From: Campylobacteraceae bacterium
Lineage (GTDB): Bacteria > Campylobacterota > Campylobacteria > Campylobacterales > Sulfurovaceae
Assembly (NCBI GenBank): GCA_027068975.1
Contig: JALXFN010000101.1
Span: 1 to 48,544, forward strand
DNA length: 48,544 nt
Direction of reading: 5' to 3'
Under the pieces are notes generated by a model, which did not search any database, was not told the origin of the DNA, and saw only the letters and a program-made list of their open reading frames with translations. Below, one piece after another: positions 1,907 through 46,971 of the stretch. The position numbers and the translations under genes were made by a program. Within the stretch, counting starts at the first letter, position 1; the number at the start of each line of letters is the position of its first letter.

Positions 1907-2189
1907 TGGGGTCTCTTATATATTTCATCTCTTGATGCAAGGTTAAAGCAATTAAAAAAATGTACTATTTTATCAAATAAATTAAGTCTAATGGTCATTT
2001 TTTAGCCTTTACTTGCTTTTGTTTTAAGTATATCAGAAAGTTGTTGAAAGTGTGGTGGGTGTGTAAATTTCAAAATGTTTTAGATTATTTTAAGCTTTGT
2101 TATATGAAATAGCTTTGAGTCCTATTTTTTATTAAGATTTTCTATGATACTATCAATTTATAATTGATTTTTTAATCAAAGGATAAAAA

Positions 2190-3455
2190 TTGAAAATATT
2201 ATTCTATAGCATTATACTCATTCTAATACTAAACAGTTGTGGAAATTCAAAGAAAGATGAAAAAAGTGATTCTGTTCCCATAGTAATTATGGGACCATCT
2301 ACTGTATATATTGCACATGAGTTAAATGAAGCAATGTATCAAGATGGAAGCGATTGTCGCCTTGAAGGCTGGGGTGAGAGACTTTGGGAGTATGCAAGTA
2401 GTAATAATATTGCATCGAAAATATATAATTTTGCACAACCTGGTTCAAATACACAAACTTTCCAAATCCCCCCTGAAGAGAGAGAAGGCAACGATAGATT
2501 ACAATATGGTCCCCAAAGAGACCACTACTGGGCAAAAGTTGTTGAGAAGATGAAAGAGTTAAAAAAAGGAATACTTCTTATACAATTTGGTGCAAATGGA
2601 GATACAAAAGAGCAATTTAAATCAAATATAAGAAATTTTATACAAAAAGCAAAAGCTCTTAACTTTACACCTATTTTACTAACTGAGATGGCGAAAAGAA
2701 TAAGAAAAAATGGTCATTATAATGCTGGTAGAGGAGAAGAAATAGAGTGGATGAGAGAAATTGCAGAAGAACAAGATGTAATGCTTTTAGACCTTTTTGA
2801 AAAGAGTAAGAGTGTCTATTCTCAATTAACAGAAAAAGAGTGGGACGAACAATTTGCTAACTGTTACTCTAAATGGTATCGAGGAGATACTGCGCCAAAG
2901 CAAGATACTCATTTTGAGCCAAAGGGTGCTAAAAAGGTCGCATCATGGATTAGAGAACTAGCATGTGAAGAGGATAAAAATAGTGTATTATGTCAGGAGT
3001 TAAATGGGACTCCAAAGAGACTACTCTTATCATCAACTAAAAATATTCCAGAGCATGACATACCACCAATGAGTTGGGAAAATATGCCTAAAGGCACTAA
3101 AAGTTTAGCTATTGTTATAGACGACCATAGTGCTAATCATTGGGTTCATTGGGCTGTAGCAAATATTGCCCCTAAAAGAACCTCAATAGTTGCAGAAAAA
3201 ACACCAAATGAAGCAAAAGTTTTAAAAAATCAAGAAGGTGCAGAACTTTATGTTGACCCTGCTTACCCTCATCAACATATTTATGAAATACATATTTATG
3301 CTTTAGATGTAGAAAAGTTATCCGATACTCATAGAATGCAAGGTACAAGAAAAATACCACTGTTTGATTCAGATAAAATCTATAATCATATAATGTTTGA
3401 AAAAAGATTTGGAAACTTTATTATAGGTAAAGCATCACATTTTTTTGAACCTTAG
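2190..3455 (+). CDS. Lipoprotein with SGNH/GDSL-hydrolase-like fold
   Basis: A 421-residue predicted lipoprotein. It starts at TTG with AAAGGA placed 8 nt upstream. The signal peptide ends in a lipobox (ILNSC, Cys17). The SGNH pattern is visible: block I reads IMGPSTVY, with Ser kept but the usual Asp of GDS replaced by Pro. A GANGD stretch stands where GxND is expected, and DTHFEPKGA provides the C-terminal Asp/His pair. GWGERL after block I recalls rhamnogalacturonan acetylesterase-type enzymes. It may therefore be an esterase acting on carbohydrate or envelope substrates, but the altered block I makes activity uncertain. A roughly 150-residue C-terminal extension is unassigned. It is monocistronic, with a toxin-antitoxin pair downstream. 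Confidence 0.7.
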   Translation: MKILFYSIILILILNSCGNSKKDEKSDSVPIVIMGPSTVYIAHELNEAMYQDGSDCRLEGWGERLWEYASSNNIASKIYNFAQPGSNTQTFQIPPEEREGNDRLQYGPQRDHYWAKVVEKMKELKKGILLIQFGANGDTKEQFKSNIRNFIQKAKALNFTPILLTEMAKRIRKNGHYNAGRGEEIEWMREIAEEQDVMLLDLFEKSKSVYSQLTEKEWDEQFANCYSKWYRGDTAPKQDTHFEPKGAKKVASWIRELACEEDKNSVLCQELNGTPKRLLLSSTKNIPEHDIPPMSWENMPKGTKSLAIVIDDHSANHWVHWAVANIAPKRTSIVAEKTPNEAKVLKNQEGAELYVDPAYPHQHIYEIHIYALDVEKLSDTHRMQGTRKIPLFDSDKIYNHIMFEKRFGNFIIGKASHFFEP

Positions 3456-4178: not shown

Positions 4179-4865
4179 CTAAAACCAAATCCGAACCCCA
4201 CCAACAGCATAAGTCTCATTAAGAGGAGAAATATCAGCAGTATTACCAAAGTTTTTACTCCACTCTACCCCAACATAAGGAGCAAATTCACGTCGTATCT
4301 CATAGCGTAAACGCATACCAGCTGTAAGGCTTGAAAGACCTTTTCTTAAACCCATGTTTAGGTTGTCTTTACTGTAGGCATCAAGTGCAATTGATGGTGT
4401 CAAAATAAGCTTTTGTGTAAACAGTGCTTCATACTCTGCTTCTAAACGTACTCCTAGATTTCCACTGTCACCAATGAGTAAGGCTCCACGTGTTTCAAAA
4501 AAGTAAGGGGCTAAACCTTGAATGGCAACTACACCCCATGTTTGAGAGTCAGCTTCTGTTTTGTCATAGCCAACACCAAACTGTATGTCCCAATAAGGAG
4601 CAATGGCTTTAGAATAAATCAATTGGTTTTCACTCTGGGTTGAGCCATCTTTTGGTTTTTCACCTTCGGTATAAAAGTAAATTTTATCCAAATCATAACC
4701 TATCCATAAATTCGTGTCCCAAGCAATGTTTTTTTCATCATTTCCTTGTTTTTCTAACTCATCAATGGTAAGTTTTGAAAGTAGTGGGTCATCACCCATT
4801 CCTGCATGGCTTAGTGTTCCAAGTACCATAAGTATGGCTGTTGTTTTTAATATTTTTTTCATCAT
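4179..4865 (-). CDS. copB: Copper resistance protein B family, outer-membrane
   Basis: A 228-residue protein with signal peptide (MMKKILKTTAILMVLGTLSHA) and the CopB/PcoB beta-barrel pattern: WIGYDLDKIYFYTEGE near the start and a terminal MRLRYEIRREFAPYVGVEW...GGVRIWF ending in Phe, the usual outer-membrane C-terminus. Classical CopB has a long Met/His-rich N-terminal part that is absent here, so this is a short form. The gene follows copA by 7 nt in the same direction and shares its transcript. Its likely role is copper sequestration or efflux across the outer membrane alongside the CopA oxidase. AAAGGATAA stands before the double ATG. Confidence 0.85.
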   Translation of the reverse strand: MMKKILKTTAILMVLGTLSHAGMGDDPLLSKLTIDELEKQGNDEKNIAWDTNLWIGYDLDKIYFYTEGEKPKDGSTQSENQLIYSKAIAPYWDIQFGVGYDKTEADSQTWGVVAIQGLAPYFFETRGALLIGDSGNLGVRLEAEYEALFTQKLILTPSIALDAYSKDNLNMGLRKGLSSLTAGMRLRYEIRREFAPYVGVEWSKNFGNTADISPLNETYAVGGVRIWF

Positions 4866-4872
4866 TTATCCT

Positions 4873-6594
4873 TTATGCTACTACTTTTCTAAACATACCA
4901 CTCATATGGTAAAGCAGGTGACAATGGTACGCCCATTCACCTTTGGCATCAACGGTAACCTGCATACTAATCTTAGAACCTGGTTGAACAATAACGGTAT
5001 GTTTTCGTACAAATTGGTTATCCCCTGTCTCTAGGTCACTCCACATTCCATGTAGGTGCATTGGGTGATTCATCATGGTATCGTTTATGTAGGTAATACG
5101 TAAACGTTCACCATAATGAAACTGTAGTGGTTTGGCATCGGTATATTTAATTCCATTTATTGACCACATGTAACGTTTCATATTTCCTGTAAGCCGTAAA
5201 ATTATCTCTCTATCAGGGTACGTTGTATCTACCACACCTTCTAAACTTTTTAAATCGGCATAGGTTAATACTTTTCGTCCATTATTTCTAAGCCCAACAC
5301 CTGGGTCACTCAAACGGTATTGAGGATCCATTGCTCTCATGGTCGTTTGTACACCACGTGCTTCTTCTAATGGGGTAATAGGAATTTTCTTTTTCATTGG
5401 CATTTTTTTAGACATCGTTTTATCTGATTTCATATCCATTGTCTCACCTTTATCCATCTTCATGCTTCCCATGTTCATTCCCATATCGGCATGACTCAAA
5501 ATAGGCAGTGCATCCATAGCAGGAGCAGTGGCTAAGTTTTGAGCATTGGTAGTTAACGCCCCCAAAGCATATCCTGAACGGTCAAGACTTTGTGCAAAAA
5601 TAGCATAGGCTTCACTTCCTTTTGGTTCGACTATTACATCATAGGTTTCGGCAACGCCGATTCTAAACTCATCTACGCTTACGGGTTCCACATTGTTTCC
5701 ATCGGCTGATACAATGGTCATTTTTAGATTGGGAATACGTACATCAAAAAATGTCATAGCCGAAGAGTTAATAAACCGTAGACGAATCTTCTCACCTCTA
5801 TTAAACAGAGCTTTAAATTGTGTGGCAGGATTGTTTCCATTCATTAAATAGGTATAGGTGTACCCTGTCACATCAGACAAATCTCGGTCGGTCATACGCA
5901 TCTCATTCCACATTTTTCTACTCTTAAAGGCATTTGAAAGTCCATTCTCTTTTACTTCAGAGAAAAAATCTCCAACTGTTCTTTGCTTAAAATTATAGTA
6001 ATCACCCATCACCTTTAGTTTTCGATAAATACTTTCAGGGTTCTCATCTGACCAATCAGAAAGAGAGACCACATAGTCACGGTCATACTCAAATGGCTCT
6101 TTCTCTTTAGGGTGAATAACAATTGCTCCATAAACTCCTGTCTGTTCTTGAAATCCTGAATGTGAATGGTACCAATAGGTTCCACTTTGTCGTAATGTTA
6201 TGGTGTAAGTAAAAGTCTCTTTAGGTTTAATTCCCTCAAAACTGATGCCTGGAACACCATCCATGGCAGGAGGTAAAATAAGTCCATGCCAGTGGATAGA
6301 ACTGTCTACTTCTAAGTCATTGTAAACTTTTATAGTGACAGTATCACCCTCTCTAAAGTGTAAAGTTGGTCCTGAGATTTGACCATTGACTGTGGTTGCA
6401 ATAGCAGGGCTACCCGTTAAATTTACAGCTGTTTTACCAATGACCAATGAAAACTCTGTACCATGTAAATCATGGCTACTGTCTATAGTTGGTTTTGGCT
6501 CTTTTGCATCCAAAGGTAGTGTTGCTAAAAGCGATGTTACTACAACACCTTTAACAAATGTTCGTCTATCTATTTTTGAATTATTTATTAACAT
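4873..6594 (-). CDS. copA: Multicopper oxidase CopA, Tat-exported
   Basis: A 573-residue periplasmic multicopper oxidase of the CopA/PcoA type, thought to oxidise Cu(I) and bind copper. A twin-arginine signal (DRRTFVKG) is followed by a hydrophobic stretch. All copper-ligand motifs are present: SIHWHG near 97, YWYHSHSG near 140, HPMHLHG near 512 and WAYHCHLLYHMSGM near 554, covering type 1, 2 and 3 sites. Between the second and third domains lies a Met/Lys-rich segment (MGMNMGSMKMDKGETMDM) as in other CopA proteins. GGAG lies 7 nt before the ATG. It is transcribed with copB. The OmpR-type system at 9973-11773 is a plausible but unproven regulator. Confidence 0.93.
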   Translation of the reverse strand: MLINNSKIDRRTFVKGVVVTSLLATLPLDAKEPKPTIDSSHDLHGTEFSLVIGKTAVNLTGSPAIATTVNGQISGPTLHFREGDTVTIKVYNDLEVDSSIHWHGLILPPAMDGVPGISFEGIKPKETFTYTITLRQSGTYWYHSHSGFQEQTGVYGAIVIHPKEKEPFEYDRDYVVSLSDWSDENPESIYRKLKVMGDYYNFKQRTVGDFFSEVKENGLSNAFKSRKMWNEMRMTDRDLSDVTGYTYTYLMNGNNPATQFKALFNRGEKIRLRFINSSAMTFFDVRIPNLKMTIVSADGNNVEPVSVDEFRIGVAETYDVIVEPKGSEAYAIFAQSLDRSGYALGALTTNAQNLATAPAMDALPILSHADMGMNMGSMKMDKGETMDMKSDKTMSKKMPMKKKIPITPLEEARGVQTTMRAMDPQYRLSDPGVGLRNNGRKVLTYADLKSLEGVVDTTYPDREIILRLTGNMKRYMWSINGIKYTDAKPLQFHYGERLRITYINDTMMNHPMHLHGMWSDLETGDNQFVRKHTVIVQPGSKISMQVTVDAKGEWAYHCHLLYHMSGMFRKVVA

Positions 6595-6707: not shown

Positions 6708-7403
6708 ATGTTTTATAGAATAGTATCTCTTAGCCTACTCCTCATGGTCTATCTCCACGCTACCCCTTGTAAAAACCCTGCTGTAGCTGATGACAACTTA
6801 AGTAAAAAGTTTCGTTATGGCTGTTTTTGTGGTGAGAATTACCCAAATATTAAACACCCGTCAAAAATAAATTATCGTGAATTAAATAGTACTGCACGTC
6901 AAGAACTCATAGAGCAATACCAAAGTATAGATGCTTATGATAGTATTGATGAGGCATGTAAAGTTCATGACATCTGTTTTATAAAGCATGGTAAACAAGC
7001 CAAGGTTTGTAACGACAGTATAGTAAAGAGTTTAACAGATATTAAAGATAAATTTTCAAAAGAGGCAGATGACAACGTGACCAATGCCCAATGTCGAGAC
7101 CTCGCCTTTGATATTGCTTCAGTTTTTCATACCATCTTCTCACCTGCTGATGATGAAGATACCATTTTTGACTTTGGTATGCTAATGGTCAATGGAGCCA
7201 TTACAGCCACCAACAAGATAGGACAAGAAGCTGTTGATACATTGAGCGATAATGCACCTCGTTACCCAGCTAAAGGGGTAAAGTGTTTGCTGGAAAATTT
7301 AGGAAAAATAAAAAAACAAGAAAAAGCTCCTAAAAACTATAAAGATAAAACAAAAGTAGAACCCTCATTTACTTTAGATGTGAGTGATATCTCAATGCCA
7401 TAA
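6708..7403 (+). CDS. Secreted phospholipase A2-like protein with a tail antisense to the histidine kinase gene
   Basis: The start is placed at ATG 6708, with AAGGAG 7 nt upstream; a longer frame from 6678 lacks such a site. The product has 231 residues. A signal peptide (MFYRIVSLSLLLMVYLHA) is followed by YGCFCGENYP (Ca2+-loop-like) and then EACKVHDICF with His87-Asp88, the active-site pattern of secreted phospholipase A2. Ten or so Cys residues suggest disulfides. It may attack phospholipids in the envelope or in other cells. The last 20 codons lie in a 64-bp segment repeated at 9977-10040, where the opposite strand encodes the histidine kinase C-terminus. The tail is thus antisense kinase DNA. 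A convergent hairpin follows the stop. Confidence 0.75.
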   Translation: MFYRIVSLSLLLMVYLHATPCKNPAVADDNLSKKFRYGCFCGENYPNIKHPSKINYRELNSTARQELIEQYQSIDAYDSIDEACKVHDICFIKHGKQAKVCNDSIVKSLTDIKDKFSKEADDNVTNAQCRDLAFDIASVFHTIFSPADDEDTIFDFGMLMVNGAITATNKIGQEAVDTLSDNAPRYPAKGVKCLLENLGKIKKQEKAPKNYKDKTKVEPSFTLDVSDISMP

Positions 7404-7404
7404 G
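7341..7404. repeat. Direct repeat copy A (64 bp) flanking the repeat-lipoprotein gene
   Basis: This segment matches 9977-10040 at 59 of 64 positions in the same orientation. Here it encodes the last 20 residues and stop of the phospholipase-like gene on the plus strand. On the minus strand it still reads as a histidine-kinase C-terminus with only D to E and T to S changes. Together the copies bound a 2.6-kb block holding only the lipoprotein gene. Confidence 0.9.
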
Positions 7405-7414
7405 ATTTTTAAAG

Positions 7415-7448
7415 TGGTTATTCATGAAGAAACAATCACGAATAACCA
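7415..7448. terminator. Hairpin between convergent genes, likely bidirectional terminator
   Basis: TGGTTATTC at 7415 pairs with GAATAACCA ending at 7448. The stem can be extended by two more pairs after one mismatch, leaving a 10-nt loop. It lies between the phospholipase-like gene (+) and the lipoprotein gene (-), where a shared terminator is expected. No long T-run follows on either side, so strength is uncertain. Confidence 0.55.
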
Positions 7449-7459
7449 TATAAAGAAAA

Positions 7460-9847
7460 TTACTTTTCTCTTCTATTATTTTGGTCACTATCATTCTCTA
7501 AACGAGTAGAACTGTTTTGAGAATTTTGCTGTTCATCATTCATATTATTACGATAATCCACTGTACTATTTTGTTCAGTATTAAACTTTGAAGCATTAAT
7601 ATCATTTCCAAAATTTTGCTCTTCACCTTGCATATCTTCTCTATTATTTGAAGCTATATGGTTTTGAATACGTGTCATATTATTATCTTCAAGAAAACCA
7701 TGTTGTGTTTTCTGTCCATTATGACGAAGATGTTCACGTGTTTCATTTAAGTGTTCTTCTACTTTAGTCATAGAAATAACTGTACCATTAAAATCTTCTC
7801 TTTTAATTTTCAACTCAAAAAGAATGTCATGGAGTATTCCATCTTCTGTTGGTACTTTATTTATATTGTATTCTTTTTCTTTTAAAACTGAATGTGCTTC
7901 TTTAGGAATATCTATTCCATTACTTGCATTCCCATCTCTATCCATAGACTGTAACATACGTGCAACTTCTAAATTGTCTTCTAAAATTGTCATGTTTCTA
8001 TCTGAAAGTACTGAGGCATTTACCTCTCTTAATTTAACATCTCCTAAAGAAAAAATACAATCTTTATCCAACTCATAATCAAATGCTCCATCTGCTGTTG
8101 TATTACCTTCAAATGTACCACATTTATAATGTACTCCTGCAACTTCTGCATCTACATAGTATCCTGTTGACTTTTTAATATTAGTTGTGTTTTGTTCAGA
8201 ATTTATACCATTTTGGTTTTCATTAGCATTCTGAGTTTCCCTTTGGTTGTCTTCTTGACCTTGGTTCACTTCAGACTTTGTACCACTTTGCTCTTCATTA
8301 GCATTTTGGTTCTCATTTGCATTCTGAGTTTCACTTTGGTTGTCTTCTTGACCTTGATTCACTTCAGACTTTGTACCATTTTGCTCTTCATTAGCATTTT
8401 GGTTCTCATTTGCATTCTGAGTTTCACGTTGATTATTTTCTTCAGAATTAGTAGAAGGAAGTCCATGTTGTGTTCGTTGTCCATTAGCACTAAGTCTTTC
8501 ACGTGTTTCATTCAAATGTTCTACTACTTTTGCTTCAGAAATTACAGTACCATTAAAATCTTTTGCTTTACTATGCAATTTACTAATTAATTCACCTAAT
8601 ACAGCGTCATCTGTAGGAACTTTATCGATATTAGATTCACGTAAAATAGTATGAGCCTCTTTAGGAATATCTATTCCATTACTTGCATTTCCATCTCTAT
8701 CCATAGACTGTAACATACGTGCAACTTCTGGATTGTCTTCTAAAATTGTCATGTTTTTATCTGAAAGCATAGAAGCATTGATTTCTCTTAATTTAACATC
8801 TCCTAAAGAAAAAATACAATCTTTATCCAATTCATAATCAAATGCTCCATCTGCTGTTGTATTACCTTCAAATGTACCACACTTATAATGTACCCCTGCA
8901 ACTTCTGCATCTACATAGTATCCTGTTGACTTTTTAATATTAGTTGTGTTTTGTTCAGAACTCATACCATTTTGGTTTTCGTTGGCATTTTGAGTTTCGC
9001 TTTGGTTGTTTTCTTGACCTTGAGTCCCTTCATTAACATTTTGATGTGTATTTTGGTTATCCTCAGAATTCATGCCATTTTGGTTTTCGTTAGCATTCTG
9101 ATTTTCACTTTGGTTGTTTTCTTGACCTTGAGTCCCTTCATTAACATTTTGATGTGTATTTTGGTTATCCTCAGAATTCATACCATTTTGGTTTTCGTTA
9201 GCATTCTGATTTTCGCTTTGGTTGTTTTCTTGACCTTGGTTGTCTTCAGAATTAGTAGGAAGTCCATGTTGTGTTCTTTGCCCATTAGCACGAAGTCTTT
9301 CACGTGTTTCATTTAAATGTTCTTCGACTTTCACTGCAGATATTACAGTACCATTAAAATCTTTTGCTTTACTATGCAATTCACTAATTAAATCGCCCAA
9401 TACAGCATCATCTGTTGGAACTTCATCAATATTAGATTCACCTAAAATAGTATGGGCTTCTTTAGGAATATCTATTCCATTACTTGCATTTCCATCTCTA
9501 TCCATAGACTGTAACATACGTGCAACTTCTGGATTGTCTTCTAAAATTGTCATGTTTCTATCTGAAAGCATCGAAGCATTTACTTCTCTTAATTTAACAT
9601 CTCCTAAAGAGAAAGTACAATCTTTAGCCAATTCATAATCAAATGCTCCATCTTTTGTTGTATTACCTTCAAATGAGCCACATTTATAATGTACTCCTGC
9701 AACTTCTGCATCTACATAGTATCCTGTTGATTTTTTAGCGTTTGTTATTTCTGGAGTATTATTTGTTGAAGTTGTCGCTTCACTACCACAACCAACCATT
9801 AAAAATGCAGCTACAACTGCAGATGAACTCATTGTTATTTTTCTCAC
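7460..9847 (-). CDS. Lipoprotein with three near-identical domains joined by Asn/Gln-rich linkers
   Basis: A 795-residue predicted lipoprotein (lipobox MVGC, Cys20). Three copies of a 160-residue domain lie at about 38-197, 305-464 and 558-718. Each begins KKSTGYYVDAEVAGVHYKCG and carries SMDRDGNASNGIDIP, which resembles an Asp/Asn-rich Ca2+-binding loop, and each ends near NGQ(R/K)TQHG. Linkers of about 107 and 93 residues are almost only N, Q, E, S and T. Linker 1 contains a tandem 36-residue unit starting QGQENNQSE. Domain 3 is the most diverged and is followed by a 77-residue polar tail. Similar GYYVDxxVxGVxYxC modules occur in marine bacterial surface proteins, so I infer a surface or adhesion role. 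The function is not known. The gene lies exactly between the 64-bp direct repeats, suggesting later insertion. Confidence 0.8.
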   Translation of the reverse strand: MRKITMSSSAVVAAFLMVGCGSEATTSTNNTPEITNAKKSTGYYVDAEVAGVHYKCGSFEGNTTKDGAFDYELAKDCTFSLGDVKLREVNASMLSDRNMTILEDNPEVARMLQSMDRDGNASNGIDIPKEAHTILGESNIDEVPTDDAVLGDLISELHSKAKDFNGTVISAVKVEEHLNETRERLRANGQRTQHGLPTNSEDNQGQENNQSENQNANENQNGMNSEDNQNTHQNVNEGTQGQENNQSENQNANENQNGMNSEDNQNTHQNVNEGTQGQENNQSETQNANENQNGMSSEQNTTNIKKSTGYYVDAEVAGVHYKCGTFEGNTTADGAFDYELDKDCIFSLGDVKLREINASMLSDKNMTILEDNPEVARMLQSMDRDGNASNGIDIPKEAHTILRESNIDKVPTDDAVLGELISKLHSKAKDFNGTVISEAKVVEHLNETRERLSANGQRTQHGLPSTNSEENNQRETQNANENQNANEEQNGTKSEVNQGQEDNQSETQNANENQNANEEQSGTKSEVNQGQEDNQRETQNANENQNGINSEQNTTNIKKSTGYYVDAEVAGVHYKCGTFEGNTTADGAFDYELDKDCIFSLGDVKLREVNASVLSDRNMTILEDNLEVARMLQSMDRDGNASNGIDIPKEAHSVLKEKEYNINKVPTEDGILHDILFELKIKREDFNGTVISMTKVEEHLNETREHLRHNGQKTQHGFLEDNNMTRIQNHIASNNREDMQGEEQNFGNDINASKFNTEQNSTVDYRNNMNDEQQNSQNSSTRLENDSDQNNRREK

Positions 9848-9972
9848 ATTATTTCCTTAATCTTAATTTATATTTAAAACTATATATTAATTTTATTAGA
9901 AAAGTATTAGTTTTTTAATTTTTTAGGAAATTAAATTATGATTTTGAGTATTCTCTATAGTTATTAGCTCAA

Positions 9973-11130
9973 CTACAAAGTCAAAACAAAAGTTGAACCT
10001 TCATTTACTTTAGATGTGAGTGATATATCAATGCCATAAGCTTCACATACCTTATGAACAATGTTCAGCCCCAAACCAAAACCACCTACTTGGTTGGTGG
10101 CTCGGTAAAAACGCTCATAAATCTCTTTTTGATGCTCTTTTGCTATTCCTATACCTGTGTCTTTTATGGTGATGCTGTTTTTTTCTAAAGTTATATCTAT
10201 AGAGCCACCAACGGTGTTATATTTTATCGCATTAGAGATAAGGTTATGAATAAGCCTTACAAAACTCTCTTTGTCTATTTTAAAATAGATATCATCTTTA
10301 TACTCAACACTTAAGTTAATCTTTTTCTTCTCTGCCAAAAGGCTTAAGTAGATTAACTCCTCTTTTATAATATCATTTAAAAAAAGCTTCTCTTCTACCT
10401 TTGGTTTAACAGTTTCTGCATCGAGCATTAGGTAGGATAAATCTTTATGAATAGCTGACAAACGAGCAGCAGAGAGGCAAATACGCTCTAGGTTTTTAGG
10501 GCTTTCAACTTTAGGAGCATTAACAGAGAGCATTAGTGCTGTTATTGGGGTATTGAGTTCATGGGTGCTATCCTTTATAAAGTTGTCCAGCTGAATCCGT
10601 TTTTGCTGTATGGGTTTAATAAAAAGTTTGGCTAAAAAGTAACCTATAATTGCAAGAAAGATATAGATAAAAAAGAGTGCCAAGAGTATCTTAAACTGTA
10701 GATTTTTAACAAAAGTAGCCACACCATCTTTCTCTATAACTATGCTTGTTACCCCCAAATGTCCAAAGCTACTTTTGTCCACTAAAATCAGTCTATTTCC
10801 CTTTTGATAAAGCTGTTTGGAAAAATCTATTTTCTCTTTAATATTAGAGCTAATCGCTTGATTTTTATCATCATAAAATCCTATTTTATCTGAAAAGTGC
10901 TTGACCACCCAATCTAAAGAGAACTTACTTTTAGTCATGTGGGCGTGGATAATTTTAGAAGAGAGTCTACTTGCCTCTATCTGCATCTGTGTGCGACTCT
11001 GCTCATAAAAGTATTGTGACTCTTTCTCATAAAAAAGATAGGCGATAATAGCAAAGAGAATAAAAGAGGAGGAGAGATAGAGAGCAAGAAACTGATAGAG
11101 TGTTCGCTTCTCCTCTTTAATTAAATACAT
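9973..11130 (-). CDS. Sensor histidine kinase (OmpR-partner type)
   Basis: A 385-residue membrane kinase. Transmembrane segment 1 is near 15-33, a short periplasmic sensor domain lies between, and segment 2 (ILLALFFIYIFLAIIGYFLA) is near 145-168. The H-box is STHELNTPI, the N-box LIHNLISNAIKYN, G1 DTGIGIAKE and G2 GGFGLGLNIV, so all catalytic elements are intact. The gene overlaps the regulator gene by 14 nt, showing coupling. The small sensor domain resembles Campylobacterota ArsS/CusS-like kinases. With copA/copB nearby, a metal or envelope-stress signal is a fair guess only. The 3' end of the gene is duplicated as the tail of the phospholipase-like gene. Confidence 0.92.
   Translation of the reverse strand: MYLIKEEKRTLYQFLALYLSSSFILFAIIAYLFYEKESQYFYEQSRTQMQIEASRLSSKIIHAHMTKSKFSLDWVVKHFSDKIGFYDDKNQAISSNIKEKIDFSKQLYQKGNRLILVDKSSFGHLGVTSIVIEKDGVATFVKNLQFKILLALFFIYIFLAIIGYFLAKLFIKPIQQKRIQLDNFIKDSTHELNTPITALMLSVNAPKVESPKNLERICLSAARLSAIHKDLSYLMLDAETVKPKVEEKLFLNDIIKEELIYLSLLAEKKKINLSVEYKDDIYFKIDKESFVRLIHNLISNAIKYNTVGGSIDITLEKNSITIKDTGIGIAKEHQKEIYERFYRATNQVGGFGLGLNIVHKVCEAYGIDISLTSKVNEGSTFVLTL
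9977..10040. repeat. Direct repeat copy B (64 bp), 3' end of the histidine kinase gene
   Basis: Partner of 7341-7404 (59/64 identical). On the minus strand it encodes the kinase C-terminus up to the last codon, which matches the normal end of such kinases, so this is probably the original copy. Read on the plus strand it still contains the phospholipase tail frame, including the stop. Confidence 0.9.
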
Positions 11131-11773
11131 ACCCTACCCCTCTTATGGTTGTTATCATCTCCTCACCCAAAAGCCTACGTAGGTTTTTAATATAAGTTCT
11201 AATGGTTGCCGAGGTAGGAGCTGTGTCGTAAGACCACACATTTACCATTAGCTCATCGGTAGAGATAACCTTGGTACGATTATGTAAAAAGTAGGCTAAA
11301 AAGTCACCCTCTTTTTTAGAAAGTGTCTCCTCTTTCCCATCAAAAGAGAGAACATAACGAGCAAAATCATAGGATATATTTTCATTTATTTGGAAAATCA
11401 TCTCATCATTTATTTTAAAATGTCTTTTTATATTGTCTATACGAGCCTTTAACTCGACCATCTCAAACGGTTTTTTAAGATAGTCATTTGCCCCTAGTTC
11501 AAAACCCTCTAGCACATCTTTAGAGCTGTTCATAGAGGTTATAAAAATAGCAGGAGTCTCATTACCAGATTCTCTTAAATCTTTTAGAAGCTCAAAACCA
11601 TTAAGCAAGGGGACATTCACATCTAAAAGAAGCAGGTCAAACTTCTCTTCAAATAGTAGGTTTTCTGCTTCTATTCCATTGTATATAGGGGTTACATTGT
11701 AGTTGTAGTATTCAAGGTGTTCTACAATAACTTCGGAGAGTATTAGGTCATCTTCTAGGAGTAGTATTTTCAT
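11117..11773 (-). CDS. Response regulator, OmpR/PhoB family
   Basis: A 218-residue two-domain regulator. The receiver domain has the acidic pair ED (Glu7-Asp8-Asp9), phospho-acceptor Asp51 in LLLLDVNVPLLNG and the conserved Lys in LKKPFE. The C-terminal winged helix ends with ATIRTYIKNLRRLLG and ITTIRGVGYVF, the classic OmpR recognition helix and wing. It is the first gene of the two-gene operon with the kinase. The 80-bp gap to the divergent TAXI gene must hold both promoters. Targets are unknown; copA/copB are candidates by proximity. Confidence 0.93.
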   Translation of the reverse strand: MKILLLEDDLILSEVIVEHLEYYNYNVTPIYNGIEAENLLFEEKFDLLLLDVNVPLLNGFELLKDLRESGNETPAIFITSMNSSKDVLEGFELGANDYLKKPFEMVELKARIDNIKRHFKINDEMIFQINENISYDFARYVLSFDGKEETLSKKEGDFLAYFLHNRTKVISTDELMVNVWSYDTAPTSATIRTYIKNLRRLLGEEMITTIRGVGYVFN

Positions 11774-24790: not shown

Positions 24791-24828
24791 AAACATCTGA
24801 ATTAATTTTTGAATCATAGGTTCCCAAA

Positions 24829-24950
24829 GGGGCATGGACTTCAGTCCATGTAATATATATTTTTCCTCTCGTGGACTAAAGTCCACGTCCCTAGGAACAG
24901 TGACTTTAGTCGCTGAAATGTTTTTTTCATGGACTAAAGTCCATGCTCCC
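24829..24950. repeat. REP-like palindrome cluster 1
   Basis: Four 18-bp imperfect palindromes: CATGGACTTCAGTCCATG at 24833, CGTGGACTAAAGTCCACG, a CAGTGACTTTAGTCGCTG type, and CATGGACTAAAGTCCATG ending near 24945. GGGG stands before the first and a C-run after the last, so the outer units form an inverted pair (REPIN-like). The last one ends on the stop codon of the RAYT gene, the usual close tie between REP units and RAYT. Confidence 0.85.
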
Positions 24951-25474
24951 TAGTAAATTCCATAAACTCTATCTCTACTATCTTTTAAATTGGCTTTCAA
25001 AGGATTATTTTGAATATAATCATAAACTATTGAAAAATGATTCTCATTTCTTATTGCCCTATCATAATAATTAACTTCCCAAAACTTACCTTTTCTCTTT
25101 AACAATCTATTAATCCCTATAGAACTACTCCCCTTCAATACCTGCATCGTCTTACTTAAACTATTCTGTTGCTTAAAAAGTATATGCACATGATTTGGCA
25201 TAATAGCAAAAGAGACCAAATCATATATCTCTTTATCTTTTTCTATAAAAAAATTTCTAAGATAGTCCAACACATCACCATTTAAGTATGCTCCATGAGA
25301 AGAGTTATCAATGTATTCATCTATTTTATACTCTTTTTCTCTTGCTGAAATATTCTCATCTCCATATATTCGCTTTAGAAAATCATCTACACTATCATGC
25401 GTTCTAAAAGTCACAAATTGATAATATCCTTCTAAATCCGTATGTGGTAAATATGTTCTTTTACTATTTTGCAT
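24950..25474 (-). CDS. REP-associated tyrosine transposase (RAYT, Y1/IS200-like)
   Basis: A 174-residue HUH enzyme of the single-copy RAYT type. The metal-binding HUH motif is MPNHVHILF (His95, His97), and the catalytic Tyr is in YDYIQNNPLKA (Tyr153 by alignment with YIxNNP). FWEVNYYDRAIRNENHF is family-typical. RAYTs cut and copy REP palindromes as single strands. REP clusters flank the gene on both sides; its stop codon lies in cluster 1 and its ribosome-binding site (AAGGA) borders cluster 2. It is complete and probably active, and likely spread the palindromes seen through the island. Confidence 0.92.
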   Translation of the reverse strand: MQNSKRTYLPHTDLEGYYQFVTFRTHDSVDDFLKRIYGDENISAREKEYKIDEYIDNSSHGAYLNGDVLDYLRNFFIEKDKEIYDLVSFAIMPNHVHILFKQQNSLSKTMQVLKGSSSIGINRLLKRKGKFWEVNYYDRAIRNENHFSIVYDYIQNNPLKANLKDSRDRVYGIY

Positions 25475-25486
25475 TTCTTATCCTTA

Positions 25487-25711
25487 GGAGCATGGACTTC
25501 AGTCCATGTAATATATATTTTATAGGGGCATGGACTTTAGTCCATGTAACACATATTTTCATAGGAGCATGGACTTTAGTCCATGTTTATATATTCTTTT
25601 TCCGTGGACTAAAGTCCACGCCCCTAAGAGCAATAACTTCAGTCGCTGTTTCAGGGGCAGTGACTTCAGTCGCTGTAATATTTTTTTTCATGGACTAAAG
25701 TCCATGCCCCC
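25487..25711. repeat. REP-like palindrome cluster 2 (seven units)
   Basis: Units begin at about 25491, 25529, 25568 (CATGGACTTTAGTCCATG type), 25603 (CGTGGACTAAAGTCCACG), 25631 and 25658 (CAGTGACTTCAGTCGCTG type) and 25689 (CATGGACTAAAGTCCATG). From about 25520 on it is nearly identical to cluster 6 at 34409-34599. The last unit lies 77 bp downstream of the stop codon of the first DGR target gene. Confidence 0.88.
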
Positions 25712-26976: not shown

Positions 26977-27065
26977 GGGGCAGTGACTTTAGTCACTGTA
27001 ATTTCAGGGAAAGTAACTTTAGTCGCTGTAATTATTATAAAACATAGACTAAAGTCTATGCCCCT
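26977..27065. repeat. REP-like palindrome cluster 3, next to the DGR template
   Basis: Three units: CAGTGACTTTAGTCACTG at 26981, a degenerate AAGTAACTTTAGTCGCTG at 27011, and CATAGACTAAAGTCTATG at 27043 followed by CCCC. The last lies 34 bp from the 3' end of the template repeat, in the same relative place as the units behind both variable repeats. Confidence 0.85.
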
Positions 27066-27094
27066 AGTAATTAGACTCTGGCACAGTAAGTTTT

Positions 27095-27343: not shown

Positions 27344-28420
27344 TAATGTTGTTTGGGCAAGTAGTTCATCTACAATCTTACTGTTGCTTCCCATTTTAAA
27401 GAAACCTATTGTTCCAAATATCTTGTTTTTTGCCTCTACAATATTTATTTTACCATAAGCATAAGCATATCTCACTTTTTTTAATTTTTTTCTTCCTCTT
27501 CTTATGGCTTTTGAGGTCAAACGAAAATGTGTTTTAAAAACTTTATGTCCTAAAAAGACAAAACCTGTTTGCGTTTTTAAAAGTTTTATTTTCAACGGAT
27601 GAATTTTCAACCTATAGTCAACTAAAAAAGATTCTACCTCTTTTACAATTTTTTCTAACTCTTCATACGAGTTAGAAAAGTAAAGAGTATCGTCTACATA
27701 ACGGATATAACCTTTTACTTTTAGTTCTTCTTTTACAAAATGGTCAAAAGAGTTCAAGTACAAGTTTCCAAAAAACTGAGAAGTTAAATTACCCAAAGGA
27801 ATACCTTTTCTCTGTTCATAAGGGCTAAACAGAGTATCATTTTTAAAGTAAAAAAAAGCATCATCTTGTTTGTTTGAATTTTCTATAAGCTGTGCAATAA
27901 GCTTTATAGTATCTTTACACTCTATCTTTTTTCGTAAGAGTTTCAATAGTATTTCATGGTCAATAGAAGGAAAAAACTTTTTAATGTCAAGTTGTAGAAC
28001 ATAGTCATATTTATTTGCATAATATTTTGCTCGTTTTAGTGCATTGTGTGTACCTTTGCCCTTTCTGTTAGCATAAGAGTCATAAATAAAACTTTTTTCA
28101 AAAAGTGGCTCTATATTTTGCATAATAGCATGATGCAACACCCTGTCACGAAAGGGTGCAACTGAAATGCGTCTCTCTACGCCTTGGTCATTGAGTATAA
28201 ACGAACTATAGCCACCCCAAACATAAGAGTTAGTTTTTAACTCTTCATGCATTCGTAAAAGTTCTTTGTCTTCATGTAGCCAAAACTTAGCAGGAGAGTG
28301 TTTTGACTTTTTGTTTTTTAGAGCATTATGTGAAGCTCTGTAGAGGTTTTCTAAATTATAAATATTTTCATACATATTGGGGGGGGCAATGACTTTAGTC
28401 GTTGTAATACTTTTTCTCAT
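27317..28420 (-). CDS. DGR reverse transcriptase
   Basis: A 367-residue reverse transcriptase of the diversity-generating retroelement clade. Motifs: LQLDIKKFFPSID (Asp145), the DGR-specific IPLGNLTSQ (207-215) in place of the group II intron QG motif, and the catalytic YVDD (241-244). There is no maturase or endonuclease domain. It copies the template RNA with errors at adenines. The first about 15 residues (MRKSITTTKVIAPPN) are encoded by inserted REP units; a family-like start (MYENIYNLENLYRAS) is at 28375 but has no ribosome-binding site, whereas 28420 follows the avd stop by 3 nt. The last 8 residues come from the inverted-repeat element. Confidence 0.95.
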   Translation of the reverse strand: MRKSITTTKVIAPPNMYENIYNLENLYRASHNALKNKKSKHSPAKFWLHEDKELLRMHEELKTNSYVWGGYSSFILNDQGVERRISVAPFRDRVLHHAIMQNIEPLFEKSFIYDSYANRKGKGTHNALKRAKYYANKYDYVLQLDIKKFFPSIDHEILLKLLRKKIECKDTIKLIAQLIENSNKQDDAFFYFKNDTLFSPYEQRKGIPLGNLTSQFFGNLYLNSFDHFVKEELKVKGYIRYVDDTLYFSNSYEELEKIVKEVESFLVDYRLKIHPLKIKLLKTQTGFVFLGHKVFKTHFRLTSKAIRRGRKKLKKVRYAYAYGKINIVEAKNKIFGTIGFFKMGSNSKIVDELLAQTTLRRCDHVTR

Positions 28421-28439
28421 GGACTAAAGTCCATCCCCC
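28385..28439. repeat. REP-like cluster 4 inserted at the avd/RT junction
   Basis: Two units, CAATGACTTTAGTCGTTG at 28387 and CATGGACTAAAGTCCAT at 28418, with an 8-nt G-run outside the first and a C-run outside the second. The second unit holds the avd stop codon and the RT start codon. It encodes the last few Avd residues and the first RT residues. Confidence 0.85.
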
Positions 28440-28765
28440 ACACCCATCCAACCACCAAGCATTTTACCTATCTCATCTATGGACGATGAAACAAACCTAT
28501 AACTATCATGAGGTAAAAGATTTAAATCTTTCATGAGACGACTTAAAATCCTAAGCTTTTCTAACTCTCTGTTGGCTTCTTGCAAAATAGGCTTTTTATT
28601 TTTAGAATAGATGGCATCGCTTAAAAGCATGAGTAAATTTAAAAGAGAATTTTGAATTTTCTCTCCTAACGTAAATCTATGATTTCTTGGTAATTTAGAG
28701 AGCTTTTCTATGTACCATTTTGTAAGGTTATAGGTTTTAACAATAATCGGATAATTTTCATTCAT
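28424..28765 (-). CDS. avd: DGR accessory variability determinant (Avd)
   Basis: A 113-residue four-helix-bundle protein, the usual partner of DGR reverse transcriptases; five copies form a barrel that binds RT and template RNA. NYPIIVKTYNLTKWYIEKLS, KLPRNHRFTLGEKIQNSLL and ELEKLRILSRLMKDLNLLP are typical. The fold is shared with 23S rRNA intervening-sequence proteins, but the position directly before the RT gene decides for Avd. The C-terminal GDGL is read through the inserted REP unit. Confidence 0.92.
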   Translation of the reverse strand: MNENYPIIVKTYNLTKWYIEKLSKLPRNHRFTLGEKIQNSLLNLLMLLSDAIYSKNKKPILQEANRELEKLRILSRLMKDLNLLPHDSYRFVSSSIDEIGKMLGGWMGVGDGL

Positions 28766-28821
28766 AACAAATTATAACAAATTTTGATAGAATGAACTTT
28801 AAGTTTATATAATCTTTTCTT

Positions 28822-28933
28822 TTCGTGGACTAAAGTCCACGCCCCTAAGAGCAGTGATTTCAATCGCTGTTTCAGGGGCAGTGACTTTAGTCGCTGTAAT
28901 ACCTTTTTTCATGGACTAAAGTCCATGCTCCTA
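28822..28933. repeat. REP-like palindrome cluster 5, behind DGR target 2
   Basis: Four units at 28824 (CGTGGACTAAAGTCCACG), 28852, 28879 (CAGTGACTTTAGTCGCTG type) and 28910 (CATGGACTAAAGTCCATG). The last lies 56 bp downstream of the target 2 stop codon. The order of unit types repeats that of clusters 2 and 6. Confidence 0.87.
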
Positions 28934-28983
28934 AGGAGAAAAAGAAAAAAGTAAAAACCCCAAAGCTAAAAACGACCAAAAAT

Positions 28984-34380: not shown

Positions 34381-34615
34381 ACTACTTATACGCATTAGAA
34401 ATTATTACTTTAGGGGCATGGACTTCAGTCCATGTAATACCCATTTTCATAGGGGCATGGACTTTAGTCCATGTTTATATATTCTTTTTCCGTGGACTAA
34501 AGTCCACGCCCCTAAGAGCAATAAATTCAGTCGCTGTTTCAGGGGCAGTGACTTCAGTCGCTGTAATACTTTTTTTCATGGACTAAAGTCCATGCCCCGA
34601 CACACTACTTATACG
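34381..34615. repeat. 12-bp direct repeat around REP cluster 6
   Basis: ACTACTTATACG occurs at 34381-34392 and again at 34604-34615, where it forms the rlpA stop codon and last codons. The 211 bp between hold REP cluster 6. It looks like a target-site duplication or a copied gene end. Confidence 0.6.
34413..34599. repeat. REP-like palindrome cluster 6, right border of the island
   Basis: Six units at 34417, 34456, 34491, 34519, 34546 and 34577 with the same order of types as cluster 2. The two clusters are nearly identical over about 185 bp in direct orientation. No gene lies between 34289 and 34604; the left part is plain AT-rich DNA that should hold the promoter of the conflict operon. Confidence 0.88.
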
Positions 34616-43528: not shown

Positions 43529-46500
43529 TATTAAATACAACCCATGTATCGGTTCAATAACAGAAGTTGTCGGTAGAAGTGTAGGTGATACGCCATTTAA
43601 ATACAACCCATGTATCGGTTCAATTTTTCCTCTATTTTCTCAATAAGCTCATCTGATTTATCATTTAAATACAACCCATGTATCGGTTCAATTAAAAAAA
43701 AATTAACTAGAGCCAATTCATTAAAAAAATTTAAATACAACCCATGTATCGGTTCAATATTTACTTCTTGGATAGACATAAAGAAATTCCTTAAATTTAA
43801 ATACAACCCATGTATCGGTTCAATTATGGATTTGCCAACTATGGATTTGAAACACTCTTATTTAAATACAACCCATGTATCGGTTCAATGAGAAAGCAGA
43901 GCAGGAACAGCATAATGATAATTGAATTTAAATACAACCCATGTATCGGTTCAATACCTGTCTTTTTGTCAACTGGGAAGATGTACGCCTCATTTAAATA
44001 CAACCCATGTATCGGTTCAATCGTTGCAGAGTCCATGTACATAGTAAAGGCTTTTTTCATTTAAATACAACCCATGTATCGGTTCAATACTTCTCGTTAA
44101 ACTAAGCCCTTATTTGTCTAAAGAATTTAAATACAACCCATGTATCGGTTCAATTGTTAAAATGCACTTGTTCACATGTGAAAAAGATGATTTAAATACA
44201 ACCCATGTATCGGTTCAATCGTTATATTTTTGTTGCTGGTTAATATTTTTTGTGTATTTAAATACAACCCATGTATCGGTTCAATTATTTAAAATTAGTC
44301 CAGTAGATTTGGTTTTCCCTTATTTAAATACAACCCATGTATCGGTTCAATGTAATCACCATCTACACCTATACGCCCTTGTGTTGTATTTAAATACAAC
44401 CCATGTATCGGTTCAATGGGTGTAGAGCTTTATACCTTTACAGAGTGGTACCAATTTAAATACAACCCATGTATCGGTTCAATATTACCTCTTTGAATGC
44501 CAATAAATTAAAGTTAAAAGAATTTAAATACAACCCATGTATCGGTTCAATGTATAGACATTGTCAGATTCTTGGCACAAGCATACCAATTTAAATACAA
44601 CCCATGTATCGGTTCAATTATTTTTTTATTATTTATTTGGCAATCGTTGGGGTATTTAAATACAACCCATGTATCGGTTCAATAGATATGGCTGAAGTTA
44701 TAGAGCTTGGTGGTAGTCGATTTAAATACAACCCATGTATCGGTTCAATGGTATACGAATCTTAGGCACTTTAATATCGTTAATCTATTTAAATACAACC
44801 CATGTATCGGTTCAATCCTGAAAGAGAAATAAGACCATCTGTATTAGTACCTATTTAAATACAACCCATGTATCGGTTCAATGAATAGTGAATGTTGAGG
44901 TTAGCTTCTCTATATTCTATTTAAATACAACCCATGTATCGGTTCAATCTCTTTTTTATTAAAAAGTCAACTTTTTTATAAATGTATTTAAATACAACCC
45001 ATGTATCGGTTCAATAACGGTAGTGATGTAGAAATAACTAATGTAAAAGTATTTAAATACAACCCATGTATCGGTTCAATTTGCTGGTAAGACAGGAGCT
45101 GTTACGCTAATAAAAGAATTTAAATACAACCCATGTATCGGTTCAATAATTTGAGATAGCAATTAAAATTTTAACTATTGGTAATTTAAATACAACCCAT
45201 GTATCGGTTCAATTATTTTCGGTGGAAATGGCGTTTCTGTCGTATACGAATTTAAATACAACCCATGTATCGGTTCAATAAATGACAAGGGTGAAATAAT
45301 CTATGATGAAAATGGATTTAAATACAACCCATGTATCGGTTCAATCTATGAAAGAGCTGATAAGATAGAAGCAGCCCTAAGATTTAAATACAACCCATGT
45401 ATCGGTTCAATACTTATAATGATATAGAGATTGTATTTGGGATAAATCTATTTAAATACAACCCATGTATCGGTTCAATAAAACTAGGACACTAAGTCCA
45501 CCTACTGTTAATGTTATTTAAATACAACCCATGTATCGGTTCAATGTTGCGTAAGAAAGAGAATGTAGATACTTATGTGTAATTTAAATACAACCCATGT
45601 ATCGGTTCAATTTAACCTCTTTAGAGTGCTTTAAGTTGCTTACATAGATTTAAATACAACCCATGTATCGGTTCAATTTAGAGATGCTACAAAAGGAAAA
45701 AATCACTTCATACCATTTAAATACAACCCATGTATCGGTTCAATAACAATTAAAACTTTTAAATGTGTAGACTGTGGTTTATTTAAATACAACCCATGTA
45801 TCGGTTCAATTAGGAAAGCCTTTGCTCCTTAAATCTAACTTTTGTAATTTAAATACAACCCATGTATCGGTTCAATCGATGCTGGAGGAAATAGAATCTT
45901 TCATGGGGGACGAATTTAAATACAACCCATGTATCGGTTCAATTTCAGTTGGAAAGAGAATTAATGAAGAGAGACCAGGATTTAAATACAACCCATGTAT
46001 CGGTTCAATCTCTACAAGAGTTTCTTCTATTTTTCTGGACTCTTCATTTAAATACAACCCATGTATCGGTTCAATAATGAAAACGTCTAGCCCCGAAGTT
46101 GAGAAAAAACTATTTAAATACAACCCATGTATCGGTTCAATATACATTAAAGATATATATAACTATATGTCAGCACCATTTAAATACAACCCATGTATCG
46201 GTTCAATAGTGGGCATTTTGACAAACAAATGCTCTTTGTCCAATTTAAATACAACCCATGTATCGGTTCAATTAATAAATAAGTAAAATATTGTCCACCA
46301 CGCTCACATTTAAATACAACCCATGTATCGGTTCAATATGCCATTATCAAGATGGGTTAAAGGCTCTAAAATTATTTAAATACAACCCATGTATCGGTTC
46401 AATTTATCTTCATCCCGACTTTAACACGCTTTGCCATTATTTAAATACAACCCATGTATCGGTTCAATTGTAGTCAACCATAGAGCTGGGGCTAAAGTTC

Positions 46501-46795
46501 AAAATTTAAATACAACCCATGTATCGGTTCAATGTTGCAGAAGAACAGCAGTTCATCGAGGGAGAGTTATTTAAATACAACCCATGTATCGGTTCAATAT
46601 TTTTTCTATTTCTTGACCTTTTCGGGTCTACGGAATTTAAATACAACCCATGTATCGGTTCAATTAATTTTGTTAAAGCTAGAAGAGTAAAAGAGCCAGA
46701 TTTAAATACAACCCATGTATCGGTTCAATCTCTAACATTCTGTGATAGACTATCCAGGGAGTCTGATTTAAATACAACCCATGTATCGGTTCAAT
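43529..46795 (-). CRISPR. CRISPR array, 50 repeats and 49 spacers
   Basis: The 30-nt repeat begins ATTTAAATACAACCC and ends ATGTATCGGTTCAAT on the plus strand, and I count 50 copies. Spacers are about 35-38 nt. The leftmost repeat (43529-43558) alone is altered at its 5' end (TA for AT), which marks the distal, oldest end. Transcription is therefore leftward, with the repeat read as ATTGAACC...GTATTTAAAT. That form, 30 nt and ending ATTTAAAT, resembles clostridial and fusobacterial subtype I-B repeats. Leader and cas2/cas1 lie on the right. Interior repeats look identical, so the array is probably active or recently so. Frames open through the array are artefacts. Confidence 0.98.
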
Positions 46796-46971
46796 CCAGA
46801 AAATATGGGCATTTGAAAATAGCTCTAAGTAGCTACAATCCCATAATATCTATGTTTTGTAAAGTTTTTTCCAATCGTATTGGTTCTTAACAATGAAATG
46901 TTAGAGAACTTTACGAACACGCTATTTTACCGTGGTTTACATTAGATTTTTGTTAAAAGGAGGTTGGAAAA
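46796..46971 (-). promoter_or_regulatory. CRISPR leader region
   Basis: 176 bp without a credible gene between the first (rightmost) repeat and the GNAT toxin gene, AT-rich with several T/A-runs. It contains an inverted repeat CCAAT-CGT-ATTGG (46871-46883) and an adjoining larger imperfect hairpin (GTTCTTAACA with TGTTAGAGAAC) at about 46882-46908. These may be anchoring sites for spacer uptake or parts of the array promoter. Assignment rests on position at the cas side and on the degenerate far end of the array. Confidence 0.7.

Follow-up and report, generated by a model that had tools for sequence, protein, structure and literature searches.

Convergent gene overlaps have been accounted for by a stop codon mutation model, in which a stop codon is lost and the gene is read through (PMC2174442). 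Gene 3' ends are also occupied by integrative elements, SGI1 at the 3' end of trmE being one example (PMC8409611), and homology-facilitated illegitimate recombination (PMC3240628) has been invoked for the growth of gene arrays (PMC5361080). The locus described here resembles each of these in part. Read-through overlaps, 3'-end elements and one-sided recombination are all known already, and the locus is an evolutionary scar, not a new molecular system; a search of the open-access literature returned no report of an antisense overlap duplicated with both genes kept whole.

The phospholipase-like gene and its kinase-derived tail

The window (the whole stretch of 48,544 nucleotides that was analyzed, from the genome designated G000) was compared with metagenome-assembled relatives from Sulfurovum and Campylobacteraceae. 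A gene for a small exported phospholipase-A2-like protein (PLA) occupies positions 6708 to 7403 of the plus strand (ORF start 6678 or 6708), as delimited by its ORF, a family alignment and motifs. The protein carries a calcium-loop-like YGCFCG and a CxxHDICF, whose motif residues are invariant in the 12 sequences of the family alignment and which agree with the YGCxCG loop and CxxHDxC active site of secreted phospholipases A2. The score against Pfam PF00068 (PLA2) was 18.2 bits, below the gathering score of 32.1, and a Foldseek search with the low-confidence PLA model gave no match at E<=0.001. In that AlphaFold model residues 201-231 had pLDDT<50, and the very low confidence over the last ~30 residues would fit a disordered tail, as expected.

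The gene whose antisense strand matches the PLA tail encodes a sensor histidine kinase (HK; 9973 to 11130, minus strand), recognized by HATPase_c, with HisKA below its cut-off. Its operon partner, an OmpR-type response regulator identified from its ORF and domain profiles (RR; 11117 to 11773, minus strand), lies next to it. Since the HK and RR genes sit beside those for a CopA-type multicopper oxidase (4873 to 6594, minus strand; TIGR01480) and a CopB-type outer-membrane copper protein (4179 to 4865, minus strand; PF05275), this is likely a copper-response locus. The HATPase_c profile matches HK to its last residue, in keeping with the original prediction that the kinase end is conserved in its family, and for that reason we regard HK as the owner of the sequence shared with PLA and the PLA tail as the intruder.

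The original prediction called for a relative in which the phospholipase-like and kinase genes overlap with no lipoprotein gene between them, and genome G033 (contig JALUMR010000158) is such a relative. Its gene order, CopA-PLA-HK-RR-NMT-FabD, is that of the window without the lipoprotein gene (LIPO), and its PLA and HK form a convergent pair overlapping by 67 bp (locus L049: PLA stop at 4481, HK stop at 4547), whereas the two genes of the window are 2.6 kb apart. As in the stop codon mutation model, PLA runs past the end of its family to a new stop inside the neighboring gene, and the TAA that stops it is read from the strand complementary to the Ala-Tyr codons of the kinase. The phase, with facing third positions, is (123:213), the rarest convergent phase in that study (18%). 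The window differs from the model in that the overlap is gone, each of the two genes having a copy of that sequence for itself.

All ten other PLA homologues that reach the C-terminus, from ten genomes, end at the native end and lack the 22-residue tail, which is present in G000 and G033 alone among the homologues compared. Because these ten lack it and the HK end is native, the C-terminal 22 residues of PLA are, as read from the alignments, antisense kinase sequence captured by read-through. A phospholipase relative with the same tail and no nearby kinase had been named as the observation that would count against this reading; among the homologues compared there was none with the tail away from the kinase. 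The two gene arrangements, the origin of the tail and its uniqueness are thus shown by the sequences. The PLA of the window also lacks ~14 residues that G033 has just before the captured tail (window 7300-7340).

The 70-bp repeat and the segment between its copies

The original prediction described copies at 7341-7404 and 9977-10040 matching at 59 of 64 positions, and the 5 differences in that core were recovered; the full match is a direct repeat of 70 bp (7335-7404 and 9971-10040) with 64 identical positions and 6 differences, and self-comparison of the DNA reported it as 73 bp at 90% (E = 1.3e-21). The assignment of the plus strand to the tail of the phospholipase-like protein and of the minus strand to the kinase C-terminus agreed with the ORF ends. 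Copy 1 (7335 to 7404, plus strand) holds the last 22 codons of PLA and its TAA stop, and copy 2 (9971 to 10040, minus strand) is the native coding end of the kinase including its stop. When copy 1 is read antisense it still gives a complete kinase C-terminus, YGIEISLTSKVNEGSTFVLSL followed by a stop, with the same amino acids as the kinase C-terminus of G033. The ends of the duplicate fall within 1-2 bases of both stop codons.

Most differences between the copies had been said to be synonymous in the kinase frame. The count is right (4 of the 6), and it holds equally in the PLA frame. Third codon positions of PLA and HK lie opposite each other, so that a change is apt to be silent for both proteins at once, and the synonymous differences of the kinase frame do not speak for the proposed history.

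No third copy of the repeat was found elsewhere in the 146 contigs of the window's genome, and no other direct repeat joining the 3' ends of two convergent ORFs was found in 0.86 Mb (the window plus pieces of its genome). Repeats of other kinds occur in the window. A mostly intergenic family, with members of up to 188 nt at 96% identity, lies at 24825-24952, 25486-25710, 26980-27066, 28383-28443, 28803-28935 and 34411-34603; a piece of ~60 bp near 24892-24953 matches many G033 contigs, as a dispersed small repeat would; and self-comparison offsets revealed a long tandem array with a period of ~66 bp at 43531-46802.

The two copies were predicted to flank a lipoprotein gene, and a single gene does lie between them: LIPO, the ORF at 7460 to 9847 of the minus strand, a lipoprotein gene with three repeated units of ~300 nt, nearly identical to its G032 counterpart (dS 0.028). 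A junction and hairpin (7405 to 7459; stem 7414-7449, fold z = -3.5) separate the convergent PLA and LIPO, and an intergenic spacer of 125 bp (9848 to 9972, minus strand), whose homology with G032 extends to the kinase stop, separates HK from LIPO. The PLA-LIPO join, CCATAAG|ATTTTT at 7404/7405, shows no homology.

Like elements of the SGI1 type, the insert in the window has a direct repeat on either side by which a gene end is restored, and the gene stays whole. Site-specific insertion of LIPO as a mobile cassette at gene 3' ends, regenerating them as an integrative element does, would account for such repeats, and yet the 2.6-kb insert has one cargo gene and no sign of mobility, ORFs and profile searches of it gave no match to an integrase, transposase or other recombinase, and the repeat, unlike those of SGI1-type elements, also ends a second, antiparallel gene. 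Comparable flanking repeats were absent from 16 other loci with LIPO relatives, the one long match among them (in G012) being an adjacent second LIPO-like gene copy, and the 0.86 Mb searched held no second case. We consider this explanation very improbable and dropped it on the strength of the 16 loci. A transposon with a target-site duplication fits no better: no terminal inverted repeats of the insert and no transposase were found, and the duplication is 70 bp.

That an assembly artefact united two strains is an even more remote prospect. In its favor, the relatives come from metagenome assemblies, the genome of the window is split into 146 contigs and LIPO is internally repetitive; against this, the PLA-LIPO join offers an assembler no sequence overlap, and the HK-LIPO join is independently seen in G032.

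Divergence among relatives and the order of events

In genome G032 (contig JALVXD010000292) LIPO and HK are joined as in the window, at the same junction and across the same spacer, and the contig starts within LIPO. Neither CopA nor PLA was found in this genome, whose contigs break on both sides of exactly that stretch, the other flanking contig ending at the equivalent of window 4189. The order PLA-LIPO-HK with two repeat copies is thus seen only in the window genome, with G032 cut off inside LIPO. G032 also lacks the GDSL-lipase/PEBP lipoprotein gene 2190-3455 (window 2132-3390) apart from the final 65 bp of coding sequence, and the junction there is clean, with no duplication on its flanks.

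Divergence from the window genome varied from gene to gene. Against G032, dS was 0.028 for LIPO, 0.16 for FabD, 0.18 for NMT, 0.29 for RR and 0.45 for HK, so that LIPO (~0.03) is out of step with its neighbors (0.16-0.45); against G033 it was 0.17 for CopA, 0.22 for PLA and 0.53 for HK. Across window 8479-9423 LIPO differs from its G032 counterpart at a single position in ~945 bp, with flanking genes at 91-96% identity, and by this measure LIPO itself was exchanged recently. The 3' ~900 bp of HK in the window is a divergent allele with respect to both G032 and G033; kinase and RR blocks at 9971-10870 and 11321-11620 diverge from these two genomes more than their surroundings do, and are probably imported alleles. 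In the 5' part of the kinase and RR, 24 informative sites group G000 with G032 against G033 and 2 and 1 support the alternatives, and informative-site counts in other segments of the genome group G032 with G033. The three genomes thus recombine extensively, and because they exchange DNA a simple tree cannot fix the order of events. Polarity from the species tree was dropped since the segments disagree, and so was polarity from the genes behind the kinase in more distant relatives, which are variable and unrelated (often a different lipoprotein gene followed by efflux-type genes) and hence uninformative.

The two repeat copies differ in affinity along their length. Over columns 0-34 copy 1 is exactly G033 and copy 2 shares two sites with G032, with which the LIPO-side flank of copy 2 also groups; over columns 35-69 copies 1 and 2 are alike (1 difference), as are G032 and G033. 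A mosaic ancestry of the copies is only suggested by these weakly significant patterns (p = 0.05 and 0.015).

We favor, at a probability of about 0.55, a history in which the overlap came first and LIPO was later placed between the genes by recombination, with the overlap duplicated. The PLA gene would originally have lain tail to tail with the kinase gene and then, once its own stop was lost, have run on into the antisense strand of the kinase as far as a chance TAA, giving the 67-bp convergent overlap. A segment consisting of the hairpin, the lipoprotein gene and the 125-bp spacer would later have been placed between PLA and HK, and the shared stretch would then have been twofold, copy 1 remaining the PLA tail and copy 2 the kinase end, with both proteins whole. 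The likeliest route, we infer, is one-sided recombination when related DNA was taken up, with a haplotype carrying LIPO and the kinase that had homology at the kinase end and none directly behind the PLA stop, because no integrase, transposase or terminal inverted repeat was found; homologues of the competence proteins DprA and ComEC are present in the genome. The likeness to homology-facilitated illegitimate recombination would lie in one junction within homologous kinase sequence and the other without homology, and in a gene added with a leftover fragment; the join at 7404/7405 lacks homology, and on the kinase side there may have been a crossover within copy 2, with a change of allele close to 10870.

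The overlap-first order is preferred because it requires no unexplained kinase tail on PLA, because copy 1 still reads as an unused kinase end, as a fossil of the overlap would, and because G000 and G032, both with LIPO, form a local clade against G033. Since the two copies go together in columns 35-69, this order needs a further step, either a later conversion or an introgressed kinase end. Several observations count against it: a random insertion without trimming would not end 1-2 bases from both stops, segments elsewhere pair G032 with G033, the LIPO dS of 0.028 is mismatched, and PLA and CopA were not found in the gapped G032.

An alternative is an older LIPO-HK arrangement, with the overlap arising only in a G033-like lineage in which CopA-PLA displaced LIPO; the window would then be a composite, formed when a fragment with the PLA overlap became attached to a chromosome that had LIPO-HK. 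The junction is common to G000 and G032, the spacer by the kinase bears an old divergence (4 differences in ~46 nt), and G000-G033 dS for PLA and CopA (0.17-0.22) is lower than for the kinase (0.53); in addition, the search of G032 returned no PLA or CopA. The PLA and CopA values are, however, near that of NMT (0.25), so that transfer is unnecessary, the absence from G032 coincides with an assembly gap on both sides, and the unrelated genes behind the kinase in other relatives lend no support to an ancestral LIPO. We judge this order to be unlikely.

The arrangement in G033 might instead be secondary, homologous recombination between the 70-bp copies, or with incoming DNA, having deleted LIPO and re-created the overlap from an older window state. 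Direct repeats of this length can recombine, and the G033 overlap is copy-1-like on its left and G032-like on its right, the pattern expected from a crossover within the repeat. An earlier overlap would still be needed for PLA to have its kinase tail, which adds a step, and next to the locus G033 falls outside the G000-G032 clade; we think this quite unlikely. Insertion rather than loss in G033 is thus the preferred order, not a proven one: the three genomes recombine, LIPO was itself exchanged recently, the copies look mosaic, and the only other relative bearing LIPO, G032, ends inside it. The proposal that an insertion duplicated a former overlap is supported in part, for the overlap itself, which G033 retains, and for the tie of the tail to the kinase.

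Undoing a gene overlap

A gene overlap is not easily undone, since cutting within the shared stretch harms one of the two genes. It is tempting, if distinctly doubtful at present, to speculate that bacteria repeatedly undo antisense overlaps by having an intervening gene duplicate them, in which only an insertion that copied the whole shared stretch would leave both genes whole, and in which reverse recombination would restore the overlap and make the state reversible. Close relatives here show the overlapped and the separated states together with a fossil copy of the former overlap, and so illustrate concretely one way in which an overlap can come to be resolved. They also carry a caution, that the tail of a gene may be antisense sequence borrowed from its neighbor.
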